From: SAR86 cluster bacterium
Lineage (GTDB): Bacteria > Pseudomonadota > Gammaproteobacteria > Magnimaribacterales > Magnimaribacteraceae
Direction of reading: 5' to 3'
Assembly: GCA_016777005.1 (NCBI GenBank)
Contig: JADHSF010000001.1
Coordinates: 1 to 64,000 of the forward strand
DNA length: 64,000 nt
In this document: piece by piece, positions 17,640 through 60,204 of the stretch
How the letters are laid out: every line of letters begins with the position of its first letter
Numbering within the stretch: position 1 is the first letter of the stretch
Translations under genes and position numbers: made by a program
The notes under the pieces: generated by a model
Database searches by the model: none
Told to the model about the DNA's origin: nothing
Seen by the model: only the letters and a program-made list of their open reading frames with translations

Positions 17640-20128
<2,489 letters not shown>

Positions 20129-51945: not shown

Positions 51946-52899
51946 ATGATAATTGCAATATCCGCAATAGCTTCTGGGGTTGCCCTAATATGGATTAGCG
52001 CTGAACGATTAGAGAAATATTCTGTTCTTACTGCTAAAAATTATGGGTTATCCCCATTTTTTATTGGCTCTACGGTTATTGCGTTTGGGACCTCGGCACC
52101 AGAAATGCTTACTACTTTCTTTGTATCTCTTGAAAATAAAGGATCAATGGTTATCGGGAATGTGATTGGTTCAAATGTGGCCAACCTGTCATTAGTTTTT
52201 GGATCAATGCTGTTAATTGTTTCTTTAAAGAAACTTACTATCCAACAAAATCTTAATATCTATCAAAATCTATTAATACTTTTAGCTTCTACTATGCTTG
52301 TTTGGGTAATTATTGCCACAGATCCGTTTAGCGTAATTGCTTCCTCAATTTTATTGATTGCTCTTTTTTTAGTGATTATGTTTTGGTACAAAAATAGTTC
52401 TATAGAAATTGATTCTGATGAAGAAAATGAAGAACAGCCAAAGAATGTAACCTTCAAACTAGCACTATCCCTAGTATTTCTTGTCGGAGCAGCATGGCTA
52501 ATCACTTTTGGAGCCAATCAAATTCTAGATCAATTTAATTTAGGTCAACTTTTTATTGGCTACACTGTTCTTGCCATAGGAACTAGTTTGCCAGAGATTG
52601 CGGCTTCAGTTTCTCTTGCATTAAAAGGAAGGTATGAAACAGTTTCAGGAACTCTTATAGGGTCTAATATATTTAATGGCCTATGTGTTTTAGCTATCCC
52701 AGGACTCTTCTCTAATCCCGAAATGAATGCCGGCTGGAATTATGTTAGCTGGTCGCCCCTTCTGCTTGTCTTGTTTATAGTAACTTTTCTATTCGCTAGC
52801 TTTATTTTTTACATATCAAAGAAAGAAAGAAAGGCTAGCTTTTTTATAAGTATTTTCTTTTTAAGTTCTTACTTTATTTCACTTTATTTTGCTTATTAG
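51946..52899 (+). CDS. YrbG-type CaCA sodium/calcium antiporter
   Basis: Two inverted repeats: STVIAFGTSAPEM...GNVIGSNVANL and YTVLAIGTSLPEIAAS...GTLIGSNIFNGL. Confidence 0.93.
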   Translation: MIIAISAIASGVALIWISAERLEKYSVLTAKNYGLSPFFIGSTVIAFGTSAPEMLTTFFVSLENKGSMVIGNVIGSNVANLSLVFGSMLLIVSLKKLTIQQNLNIYQNLLILLASTMLVWVIIATDPFSVIASSILLIALFLVIMFWYKNSSIEIDSDEENEEQPKNVTFKLALSLVFLVGAAWLITFGANQILDQFNLGQLFIGYTVLAIGTSLPEIAASVSLALKGRYETVSGTLIGSNIFNGLCVLAIPGLFSNPEMNAGWNYVSWSPLLLVLFIVTFLFASFIFYISKKERKASFFISIFFLSSYFISLYFAY

Positions 52900-52912: not shown

Positions 52913-53881
52913 ATGAAAAAAATCAACCACCTTAAATCCGCAAGAAAGACATTAAAAATTGAAGCAAAAGGTTTGGAAGAGCTAGCCAAATTACTTTCAA
53001 ATGATTTTAATGATGTTTGTAATAAACTCCTTAAGACTAAAGGAAAAATTATTACTTTAGGCATAGGAAAATCTGGTCATATAGCAAAGAAAATTTCAGC
53101 AACACTTTCAAGTACAGGCTCTCCATCAAGCTTTATAAATGCCGGAGAAGCGCTGCATGGAGATGTTGGAGGTATAAATAAAAATGATAAGGTTTTGATT
53201 TTCTCACACTCCGGTCAAAGTGAAGAAATAATAAACCTTTTGCCCTATTTAAAATCAGTTGGTTGTGACTACTTCTCAATTACTGGCTCCAAAACATCCG
53301 TTATAGCTAGAAATGTATTAATTAATATAGATACAGGAGTATCTGAGGAAGCCTGTCCTCTGGATCTTACACCAACAACTAGTACTACAGCAGCCTTAGC
53401 TCTTGGTGATGCTATAGCTGTAGCGCTATTAGAGGCTAAAGATTTTAAAAGTGACGACTTTGCTAAGTCACATCCAGGAGGAAAACTAGGAAAAAGATTA
53501 ATAACAAAAGTAGATGACTTAATGACTCAAGGAAAAAATCTACCTAAGGTAACTCCAAAAACGACATTATCTAAAACTCTTATAGAAATAAGCTCTAAAG
53601 GCCTTGGCGTAGCTCTTGTGATAGACAACAAATCCCTGAAAGGTATTTTTACAGATGGTGACTTAAGGAGAACACTTAATAACGAGAGCGAACCTTTAAG
53701 CGAAGACATATCAAAGTTCATGACAAAAAAAACTAAATCTATCTCAAAAGATAGCCTAGCCATTGATGCACTTGAGGTTATGCAAAACAATAAGATCTAT
53801 TCTCTTGTTGTGTTAGATCAGACTAAAAATCCGGTTGGAATAATTAGGATGCATGATTTGATCGAAGCAGGATTGGTTTAA
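52913..53881 (+). CDS. kdsD: Arabinose-5-phosphate isomerase (SIS + CBS)
   Basis: GIGKSGHIAKKISATLSSTGSPSSFINAGEALHGDVGGI; C-terminal CBS pair. Confidence 0.96.
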   Translation: MKKINHLKSARKTLKIEAKGLEELAKLLSNDFNDVCNKLLKTKGKIITLGIGKSGHIAKKISATLSSTGSPSSFINAGEALHGDVGGINKNDKVLIFSHSGQSEEIINLLPYLKSVGCDYFSITGSKTSVIARNVLINIDTGVSEEACPLDLTPTTSTTAALALGDAIAVALLEAKDFKSDDFAKSHPGGKLGKRLITKVDDLMTQGKNLPKVTPKTTLSKTLIEISSKGLGVALVIDNKSLKGIFTDGDLRRTLNNESEPLSEDISKFMTKKTKSISKDSLAIDALEVMQNNKIYSLVVLDQTKNPVGIIRMHDLIEAGLV

Positions 53882-54585
53882 TGAAAAATATTTTCCTATT
53901 TCCTTTCCTGTTTATTATCCACTTGGCGTTATCGTATAACTTGACTGGTGAAATTATTGATAACGAATATCAGTCCAACTCATATATAGAAAGACCTAAT
54001 TTTTATGTTTTTAATACCAATCAGTCTTTGCAACTTAAGGGAGACCAAGCTCGCCTAAAAGGGGATTCTCAATATTTTATAAAAAATGTTGATGCGTCCT
54101 TGGTGAGTGCTTTTTCTGAAAGCAATATCACTTCAGAAGAGGCCAATTACGATAAGAATCAAGAGACAATAGAATTTGAGCAATCTGTTAACTTTTCACA
54201 TAGCAGAGAAAAAGATAATTTCTCTATCAATACTGAGTTTTTGGGCTTCGATATAGCTAATTCAAAACTTTTTACAGACAAAAGAGCTGAAGTCAACTTT
54301 AATAAAATAAAAATTAATTCTGATGGGGTGATTTTAGAAACTCTATCAGGGATCATTAGTGCAGAATTTAAGAAGGGGAATTTAGAGATTCAAAATTTAG
54401 ATTCTATTTACAAAGGATCTGCAGATAAAATAATCATTCTCTCAGAAGACAATACTTTAATTCTGGAAGGTCAGGCTATATTTGATCAAGTGGGTTTAAT
54501 CCTACAAGCAGATTTAATCCATTATGACTATCAAGAAAATAAAATCTTAAAATCTATAAATTCTGAAATTAAAAATCAAATATGA
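53881..54585 (+). CDS. LptC-like protein with LptA/OstA-like C-terminal segment (compact LPS transport bridge protein)
   Basis: Sits exactly where kdsC-lptC-lptA would be, between kdsD and lptB; repeated beta-strand pattern (SEEANYDKNQETIEFEQSVNF..., then GSADKIIILSEDNTLILEGQAIF...ADLIHYDYQENKIL). Confidence 0.68.
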   Translation: MKNIFLFPFLFIIHLALSYNLTGEIIDNEYQSNSYIERPNFYVFNTNQSLQLKGDQARLKGDSQYFIKNVDASLVSAFSESNITSEEANYDKNQETIEFEQSVNFSHSREKDNFSINTEFLGFDIANSKLFTDKRAEVNFNKIKINSDGVILETLSGIISAEFKKGNLEIQNLDSIYKGSADKIIILSEDNTLILEGQAIFDQVGLILQADLIHYDYQENKILKSINSEIKNQI

Positions 54586-55304
54586 AACTTGGTATTGAAA
54601 ACCTTCACAAGCAATATGCAGATAAGATTGTAATTGAAGGAATTACTTTTGAACTAAGTCAGGGTGAAACTATAGGTATTCTGGGACCTAATGGGGCCGG
54701 TAAGACAACTTTATTTTATATGATTGCAGGACTTATCAATCCTGATTTAGGAAATATTTATCTAGGTAATGAAATAATCAATAAAGAATCTATATCCAAA
54801 AGAACTTCTTTAGGCCTATCCTATCTTCCTCAGGAATCATCTATTTTTAGAGGACTAACTGTAGAGGAGAATATACTTTCATCGCTGGAACAAAGAAAGG
54901 ATTTAAATCCAAAAGATAGAAAAGAATTGTTGGAATCTTTATTAGATGAATTCAATCTTTCAGAATTTTCGAAAACTCAAGGAATAAAGTTATCAGGTGG
55001 CGAAAGGAGGCGAACAGAAATTGCGAGATCGCTTGCATCCGATCCAAAATTTATATTGTTAGATGAGCCTTTTGCTGGCATTGATCCTCTGGCAGTCTCA
55101 GATTTAAAACAAACTATCCAAAAGCTTAATCAAAAGAACATAGGTGTATTGATTAGTGACCATAATGTTAGAGACACTATGAATATTTGTACTAAAGTTA
55201 TAGTGGTTAGCCAAGGTAAGATAATAGCCAATGGCAATCCTGACGATATTGCTAAAGATCCTACGGTCAAGGAAGTTTATCTCGGACACAACTTCCAGTC
55301 TTAA
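54582..55304 (+). CDS. lptB: LPS export ABC transporter ATP-binding protein LptB
   Basis: GILGPNGAGKTTLFYMIAGL; LSGGERRRTEIARSLA; DEPFAGIDPLAV. Confidence 0.97.
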   Translation: MKLGIENLHKQYADKIVIEGITFELSQGETIGILGPNGAGKTTLFYMIAGLINPDLGNIYLGNEIINKESISKRTSLGLSYLPQESSIFRGLTVEENILSSLEQRKDLNPKDRKELLESLLDEFNLSEFSKTQGIKLSGGERRRTEIARSLASDPKFILLDEPFAGIDPLAVSDLKQTIQKLNQKNIGVLISDHNVRDTMNICTKVIVVSQGKIIANGNPDDIAKDPTVKEVYLGHNFQS

Positions 55305-55307
55305 GAC

Positions 55308-56591
55308 GTGAAACAAAGTTTAAAGCAGAAACAGAAACTTTCGCTGAATATTACCGCCAACCTCGGTAATCAAATTAAATTATTATCTCTAAGTGGCTTT
55401 GAGATCAGTTCGAAACTTAATGAACTGATAGAAAATTACATATTAGAAGATGACAAACAAATAAAATATTTCAAAGATGAATTTTTAATAGATCAATATA
55501 AAAATACCCTATATTCAAATGATGGATTTGAAAATCGATTCTCATTAGATATCAATGAAACAGAATTAAAACAAAAATTATTTGATCAACTTTCAATTGA
55601 GTCTTTAAATCAGATTGAGAATCTAATTGGTGAATTTTTAATAGATTCGATTGAGGACAATGGAAGATTAGATCCAGAGTTAGATTATGAAGATATTAAA
55701 AGAATAGTCTTAGAGGATTTTCATACTCATATTGAAGATCATGACATTGATGCAGTGCTCTCAATTATTCAAAACCTTGACCCACCAGGATGCGCATTTA
55801 GATCAATCGATGAATCTCTAAGTATTCAAATTGAAAACTTAAATTTAGAAGCCAAAGAAAAGCTCGAATTAAAAGAAAAAATACAAGATTTGGTATCAAA
55901 TAAAATTTCATTACAGGACTTGCCTGATCATTTTAAAGAAGTATTACTTAAGCTGTCTTTAAATCTAGGAGGCAGTTTTGGTCAATCCTCAAAAAATTAT
56001 ATAAGACCTGACCTGATAGCCATAAGAGATAAAAATCTTTGGCATGTATCGCTAAATGATGACTTCATGTCTCAAGATCTTCTAGAAAAAATAAAAGACA
56101 AAGTTGAATCCTCTAATAAGGATGATGGTAGCTCTATATCATTCTTAATAGGCCTAGAAAGAAGACAACAAACCCTTTTCATGGTTGCTAAATTCTTAGT
56201 TGAAACTCAAGAAAATTTTTTAAACAACTTGGCTGAAAAGAGAGCGCTATCTAACAAGCAGGTAGCTAATTATTTAAAAATCAGCGAATCAACAATTTCA
56301 AGGATAGTAAGAAATAAATATATTCAATTACCAGATAAGATAATTCCACTAAAAGATCTTCTTGAAAAAAGGTTAAATAAGCCGGAAAGAGGAAAGGATG
56401 TCACGTTGAGTGATTTAAAATTCCTTATTGAAAAATTAGTATCAATGGAAGATAAATTGAACCCGCTAAGCGATGAAAGTCTTAAATTTCAACTAAAAAA
56501 TGAATTCGAAATCCTTTTATCCCGAAGAACTATTGCCAAATACAGGCAAGAGCTGAAGATTCCTCCTTCAAGACTTAGAATCAAAAAGTAA
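55308..56591 (+). CDS. rpoN: RNA polymerase sigma-54 factor (GTG start)
   Basis: RpoN box SRRTIAKYRQELKIPPS; HTH KQVANYLKISESTISRIVRNKYIQLP. Confidence 0.93.
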   Translation: MKQSLKQKQKLSLNITANLGNQIKLLSLSGFEISSKLNELIENYILEDDKQIKYFKDEFLIDQYKNTLYSNDGFENRFSLDINETELKQKLFDQLSIESLNQIENLIGEFLIDSIEDNGRLDPELDYEDIKRIVLEDFHTHIEDHDIDAVLSIIQNLDPPGCAFRSIDESLSIQIENLNLEAKEKLELKEKIQDLVSNKISLQDLPDHFKEVLLKLSLNLGGSFGQSSKNYIRPDLIAIRDKNLWHVSLNDDFMSQDLLEKIKDKVESSNKDDGSSISFLIGLERRQQTLFMVAKFLVETQENFLNNLAEKRALSNKQVANYLKISESTISRIVRNKYIQLPDKIIPLKDLLEKRLNKPERGKDVTLSDLKFLIEKLVSMEDKLNPLSDESLKFQLKNEFEILLSRRTIAKYRQELKIPPSRLRIKK

Positions 56592-56592
56592 T

Positions 56593-59500
56593 TTATTCTT
56601 TCGATGTCTCAAACCAGCCCGAAAAATCAGTTTTAGGGTCAGACAAGGTACCCCTTACAGTCCAAGATCCTGAGCTAAGTTGATCTAGATTTCTTTCAAA
56701 AGCCTTACCAGCTATATATACAATTCCCGCTGTTACAGGACCTCCTAATAAGAACGCATAAGCTGGAAGATACTCTCTCAGCGGCAATGTCATCAAAACC
56801 TCTAGATTAAGATTAGTAAAGGATCCAGTGTCATCTTTATCAACTTTTCCTTCCCATCTGAATTCACTTGATCCACTTCTGAATATTAAAGGCTTTGAAA
56901 TTGAAATTGAAGTTTTAGCTATCTTAAAATTGCCACGAACTGAATCTGAGCTAAACCCTGATTGGTATAACTTTCTAAAATCTAAATTAGTAACTTTCTC
57001 AAAAGAATCAGTGATGTTGAAAATGTTAATGAGCCTCAATAGATTATTAGGTGTGGGCATGTCCTCTCTATCTTGAATTAATAAACCATTAATATTAAGT
57101 GATACTTCTCCAAGAATATTTTTGTAACTTATCTGCCAAGGCAGAGAGTCCCAATAAATATCTACTTCGGTTGAAATTGTATCCATTTCAAAGTTTGGAT
57201 TTATTCCAAATTGCTTAAACCCTTTTTCTGGTGAGCCTGAGTATATTTTTGATTTAAGTGCAGTTTGCCAACCCAAACTTTCTTTTACAATTTCAAGCCT
57301 TGAAATGCCATCCCTAGTGCTTGTTAATCCCCATTTACCATAAATACCCTCGAGATTATTAAGTTTTAATAAACCGCTTGAAGGCTCCACATCAAATTTC
57401 CACTTACCATAGTCATTGGAATTAAGAATGAGTAAATCAGTTTCAAAAGAAAAACTGGTATTTAAATTATTAAAAACATTCAAAAATGCAGAATCTCCGA
57501 GCGAGTCATTTAAATCAATTTTTAAAAATCTGAAGTTTATTTGCGGAAGAAGATCTTTCTCTTTTGGAAGGAAAATCTTGCCTTCAAAATCATCATTTGA
57601 AATTTTAAATGCGTAGTTTTCTTTAGATTTTTCAGAGTAGATTCTTGTCTTAGGAATAATGAAGTCTGAATACTTAACCTCATTTATGACCAAGTTTTTA
57701 ATGTTAAAATTGAATGACTGGTCATCGAATGTTTGGTTTTCTAAATTTAGCAAACCCAAATCAAATTTCTTAAAGGTACCAATTAGTGAAATGATGCCTG
57801 GTTCTGTAGTTATACTTTGCTTATCTACACCCGCTATAAGATAGCCCTGCTTTTTGTCTGACGAAAGATCAAGTTTACCTCTTAGTACGTCTCCATACTT
57901 AAATCTTAGTTGAGAATAATCTTTTGTGTGAGCAGGATAGTATTGAAAATTAAAACCAATCTCTTCATTTTTAAATTTATAAAATGGATCTGAAAGAGAA
58001 ATATTTGTACCTATTAAATCTGAAGAAAATTGAATGAAACTTTTTCTAACTTTTACTCCTTTCTTAAAAGAAGGAATATTGATATCTATAAAAACTTGAG
58101 AAGATCCTGTAATTTTATCTTCTAAAGATTTAGGAATGAATTTTCTTAGCTGAACTATCTCTGTTGCACTAAAGACTGAATAATCAGGTGAGCTTATATT
58201 ATTATCAATTTCGAAGGAAAGAGGAACTGAGTTAAGTTTTAGTGAAAGAAAGGCTTCTTTTAGACCATCTGTACTATCATATTGAATTGAAGAAAATATA
58301 TTTTTTATATTAAAATCTAGAGGATTTATATTAAAACCTCCTTTCTTAATTTCAGTAGAAATCTTTAAATTTGAAGATAAAGACAATAACTCCATCTTTC
58401 TTGTTAAGGGTGAATGATAAATGTAATTAGTAAGATGGAGACCTTCAACATCTGTTAATTGAGATTCCTCGCCTTCAAATAAACCTATAATTGAAGAGAA
58501 TGGTCCACTTGCATTTCCTTCTATCTGGAAAAAGTAATTTTCTTTATTTGTATATGTTTGAACTTTTGCATCGATAGCAGAACCAAGAAAATTGCCTCTT
58601 TTTAAATCACCTAAAAAATTGAAGTCATTAACTTTGAAATCGCCACTAACATCTCCTATTTTATAACTGTTGATGTTGATGCACATATTTTCAGCCGAAC
58701 CAATCAGGCCAAAAGTAGCAGAGTTATCTTTATAGATTCTATCAACAGGGCCCCTATAAATTAAATCCGCACCTTCTGCTGAACCACACTCAATAAGACT
58801 CTTCAGAGTTTGCTTTGTTCCAGAAAGATATGGAGTATTAGGAAATAATAAGAAAGCCGAATTGTAATTTATTTTTTCTGCCCTTACTCTAAGATTAAGA
58901 TCGCCTAAGCTTGTTACAGGGACTGGTTTTAAGTCTAAAAGTCCTGTTAACCTCTCTCCATTTAAAACACCAGAAAAGACCGATGGGAAAACCTCTAGTC
59001 CTAGAGATGAAATATTGAAATTAATATGAGAATTAAACTCATCAAAACTAAGTCTTTCATCTAAAAAATCCTTTGAAGCAACAGATAATCGAGGTGAGGA
59101 TATTTTAATTAAAGATTTACCATCATCTAATTTAATTTGGCCTGCTAGACCTTGAACATTTATTGCTTCTGAAAGTATTTCAATATCTTTAAATGAGGAT
59201 CTAAAGAATTCTGAGTTTAGATCTATAGATGAATCAATCAACTCTCCTTTGACATTTATATCTAAACCGTAACTTTGAATCAGTAGGTTTATAATTTTAG
59301 TTTTTGATAAGTCTATCTTGGGGAAAATAAATACGGGATTCTTGAAATCTAAATCAACAAAAAAATCAGGAACTCTAAGGGTATTGTCATAGTTTAAAAA
59401 GGAGCTTACTTGCAATAAGTAAGAGTCTGAATCTTTTAGATTGAAACTCGATGAAAAAGCCTTTATACCCAATAAACTTTTACTCAATGAGGCATCAAAA

Positions 59501-60204
59501 TTTCCTCTAAGATTTAAAAGTTCATTTTGAAGAAATGAAAAGTTAATAAATGAGTTAATCTCTCCATCGAAATCGCAATTTTTGCAGAATTGGGAGATTA
59601 ACTTTTGACTTACTAAAAAATTAGAAGCGCTTAGATGACCCCTTAAAAGAGCCCCACTTGTATTCTCTTCACTGAGCACTTTTACTAACATGCTATTAGA
59701 TTTTTTATCCAGCAGACTAAGCTCTAAACTAGGACCATCTTTATCAAGAACATAAGATAGCCTGCCTTTCAATAAAATTTTATTACCATCAGAAATATTA
59801 ATATTTCTCAGATTGAGCTCTGTAATTTTGGTGAGAAAATTTAAAGACCCTTTGAGATTAAGTGTTTCCTCTTTGTTTCCTTGGAAATAATTAGCCTCTA
59901 TTTCAGAGATGTTGATTTTTGAAATTAGATTACCTCTCAATAAATGCATCAAGGAGAACTCTAACCAAAGATCTTTGACGAAAAGTCTCTGATCTTTATT
60001 TACAAGATTAATATCTTTAAAATAAATAGAGGGCTTTAGAGGGTGCCAGTTTGACTCTACAATGGTGAAGTTTGAATTTGCATCAAAATTAGAAAGAATT
60101 AGGTATTTATAAAACGTGTTTTGTAAAACAATACTTGAAACAATTAGTATGATCCCTAAATAAAAAGGTAGAATCCAAGCCACTATAGAGGTAATTTTTT
60201 TCAT
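56593..60204 (-). CDS. yhdP: YhdP-family AsmA-like large envelope protein
   Basis: 1203 aa, N-terminal TM, C-terminal YLPAYAFLLGGPVTAGIVYIAGKAFERNLDQLSSGSWTVRGTLSDPKTDF; mreBCD neighbour. Confidence 0.88.
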   Translation of the reverse strand: MKKITSIVAWILPFYLGIILIVSSIVLQNTFYKYLILSNFDANSNFTIVESNWHPLKPSIYFKDINLVNKDQRLFVKDLWLEFSLMHLLRGNLISKINISEIEANYFQGNKEETLNLKGSLNFLTKITELNLRNINISDGNKILLKGRLSYVLDKDGPSLELSLLDKKSNSMLVKVLSEENTSGALLRGHLSASNFLVSQKLISQFCKNCDFDGEINSFINFSFLQNELLNLRGNFDASLSKSLLGIKAFSSSFNLKDSDSYLLQVSSFLNYDNTLRVPDFFVDLDFKNPVFIFPKIDLSKTKIINLLIQSYGLDINVKGELIDSSIDLNSEFFRSSFKDIEILSEAINVQGLAGQIKLDDGKSLIKISSPRLSVASKDFLDERLSFDEFNSHINFNISSLGLEVFPSVFSGVLNGERLTGLLDLKPVPVTSLGDLNLRVRAEKINYNSAFLLFPNTPYLSGTKQTLKSLIECGSAEGADLIYRGPVDRIYKDNSATFGLIGSAENMCININSYKIGDVSGDFKVNDFNFLGDLKRGNFLGSAIDAKVQTYTNKENYFFQIEGNASGPFSSIIGLFEGEESQLTDVEGLHLTNYIYHSPLTRKMELLSLSSNLKISTEIKKGGFNINPLDFNIKNIFSSIQYDSTDGLKEAFLSLKLNSVPLSFEIDNNISSPDYSVFSATEIVQLRKFIPKSLEDKITGSSQVFIDINIPSFKKGVKVRKSFIQFSSDLIGTNISLSDPFYKFKNEEIGFNFQYYPAHTKDYSQLRFKYGDVLRGKLDLSSDKKQGYLIAGVDKQSITTEPGIISLIGTFKKFDLGLLNLENQTFDDQSFNFNIKNLVINEVKYSDFIIPKTRIYSEKSKENYAFKISNDDFEGKIFLPKEKDLLPQINFRFLKIDLNDSLGDSAFLNVFNNLNTSFSFETDLLILNSNDYGKWKFDVEPSSGLLKLNNLEGIYGKWGLTSTRDGISRLEIVKESLGWQTALKSKIYSGSPEKGFKQFGINPNFEMDTISTEVDIYWDSLPWQISYKNILGEVSLNINGLLIQDREDMPTPNNLLRLINIFNITDSFEKVTNLDFRKLYQSGFSSDSVRGNFKIAKTSISISKPLIFRSGSSEFRWEGKVDKDDTGSFTNLNLEVLMTLPLREYLPAYAFLLGGPVTAGIVYIAGKAFERNLDQLSSGSWTVRGTLSDPKTDFSGWFETSKE

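Follow-up and report, generated by a model that had tools for sequence, protein, structure and literature searches.

A single 234-residue protein, encoded directly upstream of lptB in a genome of the very abundant gammaproteobacterial ocean group SAR86, is by its homology a hybrid of LptC and LptA, which as two separate proteins carry lipopolysaccharide (LPS) through the periplasm from one membrane to the other. We consider it probable that this protein acts as the single-subunit periplasmic LPS bridge of a natural six-protein Lpt machine, in which it would join LptF to LptD. The basis for this reading is the homology of the hybrid, its predicted fold, the detection of no other lptC or lptA gene in the genome or its relatives, a single gene slot throughout the order and an uncharged residue at position 212 of LptF.

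The gene lies in a window of 64,000 nucleotides from the start of contig JADHSF010000001.1, part of an assembly of 1.2 Mb in 51 contigs that is 82.6% complete. The gene order is yrbG-kdsD-hybrid-lptB-rpoN (Table 1). In E. coli, kdsC, lptC and lptA are found between kdsD and lptB, whereas the SAR86 window holds one gene in place of these three. The hybrid gene overlaps the stop of kdsD by 1 nt (TAATG, 53879–53883) and the start of lptB by 4 nt (ATGA, 54582–54585). The open reading frame coordinates thus bear out the original prediction that kdsD is followed at once by one 234-residue frame and then by lptB, with overlaps of these lengths.

Table 1. Coordinates of the hybrid gene, its parts, its neighbours and kdsA within the window.
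Feature	Position	Strand	Basis or remark
kdsA	17640–18464	−	51% identity to E. coli KdsA
yrbG-type Na/Ca exchanger	51946–52899	+	Upstream neighbour, like E. coli
kdsD (KpsF/GutQ family arabinose-5-phosphate isomerase)	52913–53881	+	TIGR00393, 308 bits (cut-off 203.7)
lptC/lptA hybrid gene	53881–54585	+	ATG start, 234 aa; sole periplasmic-bridge gene detected in the genome
N-terminal hydrophobic segment, residues 1–20	53881–53940	+	Hydropathy and sequence across relatives; low-confidence helix in the model
LptC-like part, residues 35–158	53983–54354	+	hhalign against LptC; putative LptF-docking end
LptA-like part, residues 110–222	54208–54546	+	hhalign against LptA; putative LptD-docking end; holds most conserved stretch
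lptB, LPS exporter ATPase	54582–55304	+	TIGR04406, 325.5 bits (cut-off 240)
rpoN (sigma-54)	55308–56591	+	Downstream neighbour, like E. coli
Long ORF, AsmA/YhdP-like by eye	56593–60204		Downstream of the hybrid locus

The protein had been described as LptC-like at its start and of OstA/LptA type at its end, and both parts of this description were confirmed by profile comparison. Residues 80–150 matched LptC in Pfam (PF06835, E 5e-7, 29.9 bits against a curated cut-off of 21) and residues 169–220 matched LptD_N/OstA (E 9e-5, above the curated cut-off). Among the NCBIfam models, TIGR04409 (LptC) matched residues 64–150 with 33.7 bits, short of its equivalog cut-off of 38, and TIGR03002 (LptA) matched residues 143–223 with 22.3 bits, far below its equivalog cut-off of 71.7. 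Alignment with hhalign was performed using a profile from roughly 20 hybrid orthologues of the genome's own family, f1. Positions 1–171 of gammaproteobacterial LptC aligned to hybrid residues 1–158 (E 8.7e-9), and positions 21–132 of SAR86 proteins that are LptA only aligned nearly gaplessly to residues 110–222 (E 7e-13), corresponding to a full LptA unit; other LptA proteins aligned to residues 68–225 (E 4e-11). The match between the SAR86 LptA-only proteins and LptC was weaker than that of the hybrid, at E 2.6e-4. The LptC-like and LptA-like matches overlap since a common jellyroll underlies both LptC and LptA. A PDB sequence search with the hybrid alone returned chance matches only.

The AlphaFold model of the hybrid is a single elongated beta-jellyroll spanning residues 35–232 (pLDDT 87.6, pTM 0.78). 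The best solved Foldseek matches of this model were LptA and LptC, including LptA 2r1a (E 2e-5, TM-score 0.81 by target) and 6mit_C, the LptC of the LptB2FGC complex (188 columns). About 198 residues are structured in the hybrid as opposed to 126–135 in solved LptC and LptA chains, and the hybrid therefore amounts to about 1.5 jellyroll units, not two. The word chosen in the original prediction for lptC and lptA, "collapsed", was apt in that the protein is one jellyroll of this length rather than a tandem of complete domains. The OstA-like fold that was looked for in the C-terminal segment was present in both the AlphaFold and Foldseek results, in addition to the LptA homology found with hhalign.

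The hydropathy of the N-terminus was 1.2–2.3 in the genome's own genus versus 2.4–2.8 in family f3, and signal-peptidase-like sites were observed in several members of the genus. Judged from these sequence features, the N-terminus of the hybrid may be a cleavable signal peptide rather than a membrane anchor of the LptC type. Comparison of the hybrid gene with that of its nearest relative gave a dN of 0.10 and a dS of 0.34. The last 59 residues were the slowest-changing part (dN 0.03 and dS 0.19 between the two nearest genomes), and residues 176–234 were also the most conserved, at 2.58 bits versus 1.7–2.1 in the rest of the protein. That conservation is strongest at the LptA-like end is consistent with a putative docking of this end to the N-terminal domain of LptD. 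Both the position and the length of the gene are kept across the whole genus, which together with purifying selection, as indicated by dN/dS, shows the hybrid to be a real gene.

Further lptC or lptA genes were searched for with three profiles (PF03968, PF06835 and a SAR86 LptA-only profile), each run over the genome itself and 60 relatives, some of these 61 assemblies being incomplete. No consistent third OstA-type locus was found in the 61 genomes; the significant matches in nearly all of them were the slot before lptB and LptD, and there were a few isolated weak matches (E 0.01–1). The result was the same for genomes assembled into a single contig, such as G005 from the hybrid's own genus (95% complete), in which these profiles revealed no further OstA locus. 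The same profiles did pick up the N-terminal domain of LptD as well as the sister-family genes that encode LptA only. A separate lptA, which the original prediction had allowed for, was thus found with the three profiles neither in the genome itself nor in its relatives, and no second lptC was detected either. A very diverged extra LptA could escape such a search on account of the jellyroll units being homologous and low in sequence identity.

All 40 of the SAR86 loci that were fetched had one gene alone immediately before lptB. In 39 of them the gene preceding this one was recognised as kdsD, the exception being G047, in whose stretch no kdsD was seen. As a control, lptB loci from other gammaproteobacterial families were inspected, and roughly 42 out of 45 had separate lptC and lptA. 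The single-gene slot is apparently order-wide in SAR86, a pattern that the original prediction had not foreseen, nor had it foreseen that SAR86 families fill the slot differently. In family f1 the slot protein is 209–246 residues long, except in genus g7, where it is a single unit of 171 residues. Families f2 and f4 carry LptA-only proteins of 131–142 and 125–129 residues, respectively, with signal-peptide-like starts. Profile search of f2 and f4 genomes (loci L091, L093–L096, L098 and L105–L109) detected LptA-type proteins only and no LptC, and on this evidence the two families seem to be without any LptC. In f3 the slot is filled by membrane-anchored LptC-type proteins of 183–239 residues, the C-terminal part of which also matches the LptA profile in genus g13; f3 is thus mixed. 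SAR86 formed one clade in a KdsD-LptB tree with f2 branching first, so the slot appears to have changed state more than once within the order. Among individual loci, the hybrid match in G015 (L013) runs across two TAA codons, which may reflect a frameshift, a broken copy of the gene or an error of assembly. Among the other gammaproteobacterial genomes, G083 (L291), G106 (L295) and G118 (L262) have lptC near lptB with no recognised adjacent lptA, and in G118 a PIN-like toxin gene (by eye) is situated between the two.

Genes for LptD, LptF and LptG are present in the genome. Substitution of Arg212 in E. coli LptF (R212G, R212S or R212C) permits life without LptC, in the case of R212G via a six-protein bridge (PMC4986956, PMC9972910). 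Position 212, placed in the alignment by way of a conserved Gly two positions earlier, is Ser in the genome itself and is uncharged and never Arg in all 46 SAR86 LptF (16 Ser, 13 Leu, 6 Ile, 6 Phe, 3 Val, 1 Ala and 1 Met). The residue is Arg in 43 of 56 other LptF and something else in the other 13. As at least some of the non-Arg outgroup genomes retain separate lptC and lptA, position 212 was discarded as an unambiguous marker for the loss of LptC. It fits the single-bridge reading but is suggestive only, given these outgroups and the fact that SAR86 amounts to one clade. The idea that LptF has absorbed LptC was likewise rejected, the LptF jellyroll being 113–131 residues in SAR86 versus 125–135 in the listed outgroups. 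A C-terminal extension of LptF of 29–41 residues, which looks like a seventh membrane helix, is carried by each of the 16 proteins examined from f2 and f3 (e.g. L192 and L209), is absent from f1 and f4 and occurs in one of about 55 outgroup LptF (G105). This helix may be a substitute for, or an addition to, the LptC helix. For LptE a weak match only was obtained (G000:C18:28390-28680, outside the window, E 0.001) and the protein went undetected in most SAR86 genomes searched, so it is either missing from SAR86 or highly diverged there.

The prediction that kdsC is missing in spite of kdsA and kdsD being present was also sustained. No match to TIGR01670 was found in the genome itself or in 58 of the 60 relatives, and both kdsA and kdsD were identified in the window (Table 1). 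The matches in the two exceptions (L058 and L059) adjoin NeuB-like genes (by eye), in surroundings that are apparently a nonulosonate sugar cluster, and on account of these neighbours neither is likely to be the KDO enzyme. With kdsA present and no KDO-type kdsC found in the 61 genomes, the KDO-8-P phosphatase step is presumably carried out by another phosphatase.

In the mechanism we propose, the hybrid would have originated by fusion or internal deletion; its N-terminal part would derive from LptC and its C-terminal part from LptA, the two forming one continuous jellyroll of about 1.5 units. By analogy with its homologues, the protein would be exported to the periplasm and receive LPS from the LptF jellyroll at its N-terminal edge. 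The acyl chains would then move through a single unbroken groove and LPS would be passed from the C-terminal edge to the N-terminal jellyroll of LptD. Such a machine would consist of six protein kinds (LptB, LptF, LptG, the hybrid, LptD and probably LptE) instead of seven. A shorter bridge is plausible because monomeric LptA is functional in E. coli, because one LptC and one LptA together with the membrane-bound parts span about 16 nm (PMC5575297) and because the LptC membrane helix is dispensable in E. coli (PMC4986956).

The original prediction had allowed for either a minimal fused LptC-LptA bridge or an extended LptC with LptA encoded elsewhere. In the latter case LptA would be very diverged or unassembled and the machine would be an ordinary one of seven proteins. 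The incompleteness of the genome, the quick divergence of OstA units and the low NCBIfam LptA score of the hybrid speak for this, but it is hard to reconcile with 61 genomes, single-contig G005 among them, in which profiles able to find the LptD N-terminal domain and sister-family LptA-only genes revealed no consistent third OstA locus. As the C-terminal part of the hybrid in addition matches a full LptA unit, we consider a separate LptA unlikely; it has no support from sequence, and the failure of three profiles to find a separate lptA, along with the OstA fold of the C-terminal segment, supports the fused bridge. That no fusion took place, and that a single LptA (or LptC) gained strands by internal repeat expansion while still being the sole bridge subunit, is possible although doubtful, and the weight given to this origin overlaps with that of the fused bridge since the two differ in origin only. 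Expansion would agree with the single-unit protein of g7 in the same family and with the two LptA-only sister families, and parts of the hybrid would align to both LptC and LptA in any event as these are homologous jellyrolls. Similarity to LptC, however, extends over residues 1–158, the N-terminal region included, and is much stronger than that between the SAR86 LptA-only proteins and LptC.

Two further explanations carry little weight. LPS could be carried by other envelope-spanning proteins, which may exist and for which the AsmA/YhdP-like frame downstream (Table 1) is a candidate by eye, leaving the hybrid with a different role. This is very improbable considering the overlap of the gene with lptB, the LptA/LptC fold, the conserved LptA-like end and the presence of LptD, LptF and LptG. 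An artefact of assembly or sequencing that fused two genes, conceivable in a draft of 51 contigs, is refuted by independent assemblies and single-cell genomes of the genus and family that have like length and order, as well as by the purifying selection on the gene, and its probability is close to nil.

Whether the fused bridge of f1 is one instance of a wider pattern can be argued about equally well either way. The whole SAR86 order would then have a six-protein Lpt machine with one kind of bridge subunit, reached by different routes: a hybrid in f1, LptA without LptC in f2 and f4, and an LptC-type protein without recognisable LptA in parts of f3, with the uncharged LptF residue 212 as the permissive change. 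Work on the E. coli machine published in 2022 assumes that LptC is kept in all lipopolysaccharide-bearing bacteria; in SAR86, LptC appears not to be retained as a separate gene. No natural LptC-LptA fusion or natural loss of LptC was found in the open literature, the subscription literature being mostly outside the search, and an earlier description is possible. SAR86 offers natural test cases for what LptC, the length of the bridge and LptF position 212 contribute, and purification and imaging should be simpler for a bridge of one chain than for one of several proteins. There is also a bearing on thanatin and other antimicrobial peptides whose site of action is the joint of LptC with LptA, as there is no two-protein joint here.

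Compared with known systems, the SAR86 locus resembles that of the seven-protein machine of E. coli (LptB2FGCADE) in its neighbourhood, ABC transporter parts, LptD and jellyroll fold. In composition it resembles the E. coli delta-lptC suppressors with LptF R212G, R212S or R212C (PMC4986956, PMC9972910), which have six Lpt protein kinds as proposed for SAR86; the R212S suppressor has the same residue, Ser, as the SAR86 genome studied here. In the suppressor strain, however, LptC is lost and extra LptA is needed, whereas the SAR86 protein retains LptC-like and LptA-like parts, and the six-protein state is laboratory-made in E. coli but would be natural and order-wide in SAR86, as read from sequence. 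The unit of LptA (TIGR03002) and of P. aeruginosa LptH is matched by the LptA-like part of the hybrid, and the fold of the model matches LptA with the TM-score given above. Unlike these proteins, the hybrid has about 90 additional LptC-like residues at its N-terminus, comprises some 1.5 units, scores below the equivalog cut-off and is not a separate one-unit protein beside a separate LptC, there being a single gene and no second locus detected. LptC (TIGR04409, PF06835), in turn, is matched over its positions 1–171, to which the hybrid adds LptA-like C-terminal strands, and LptC has a membrane anchor where the N-terminus in this genus appears signal-peptide-like.
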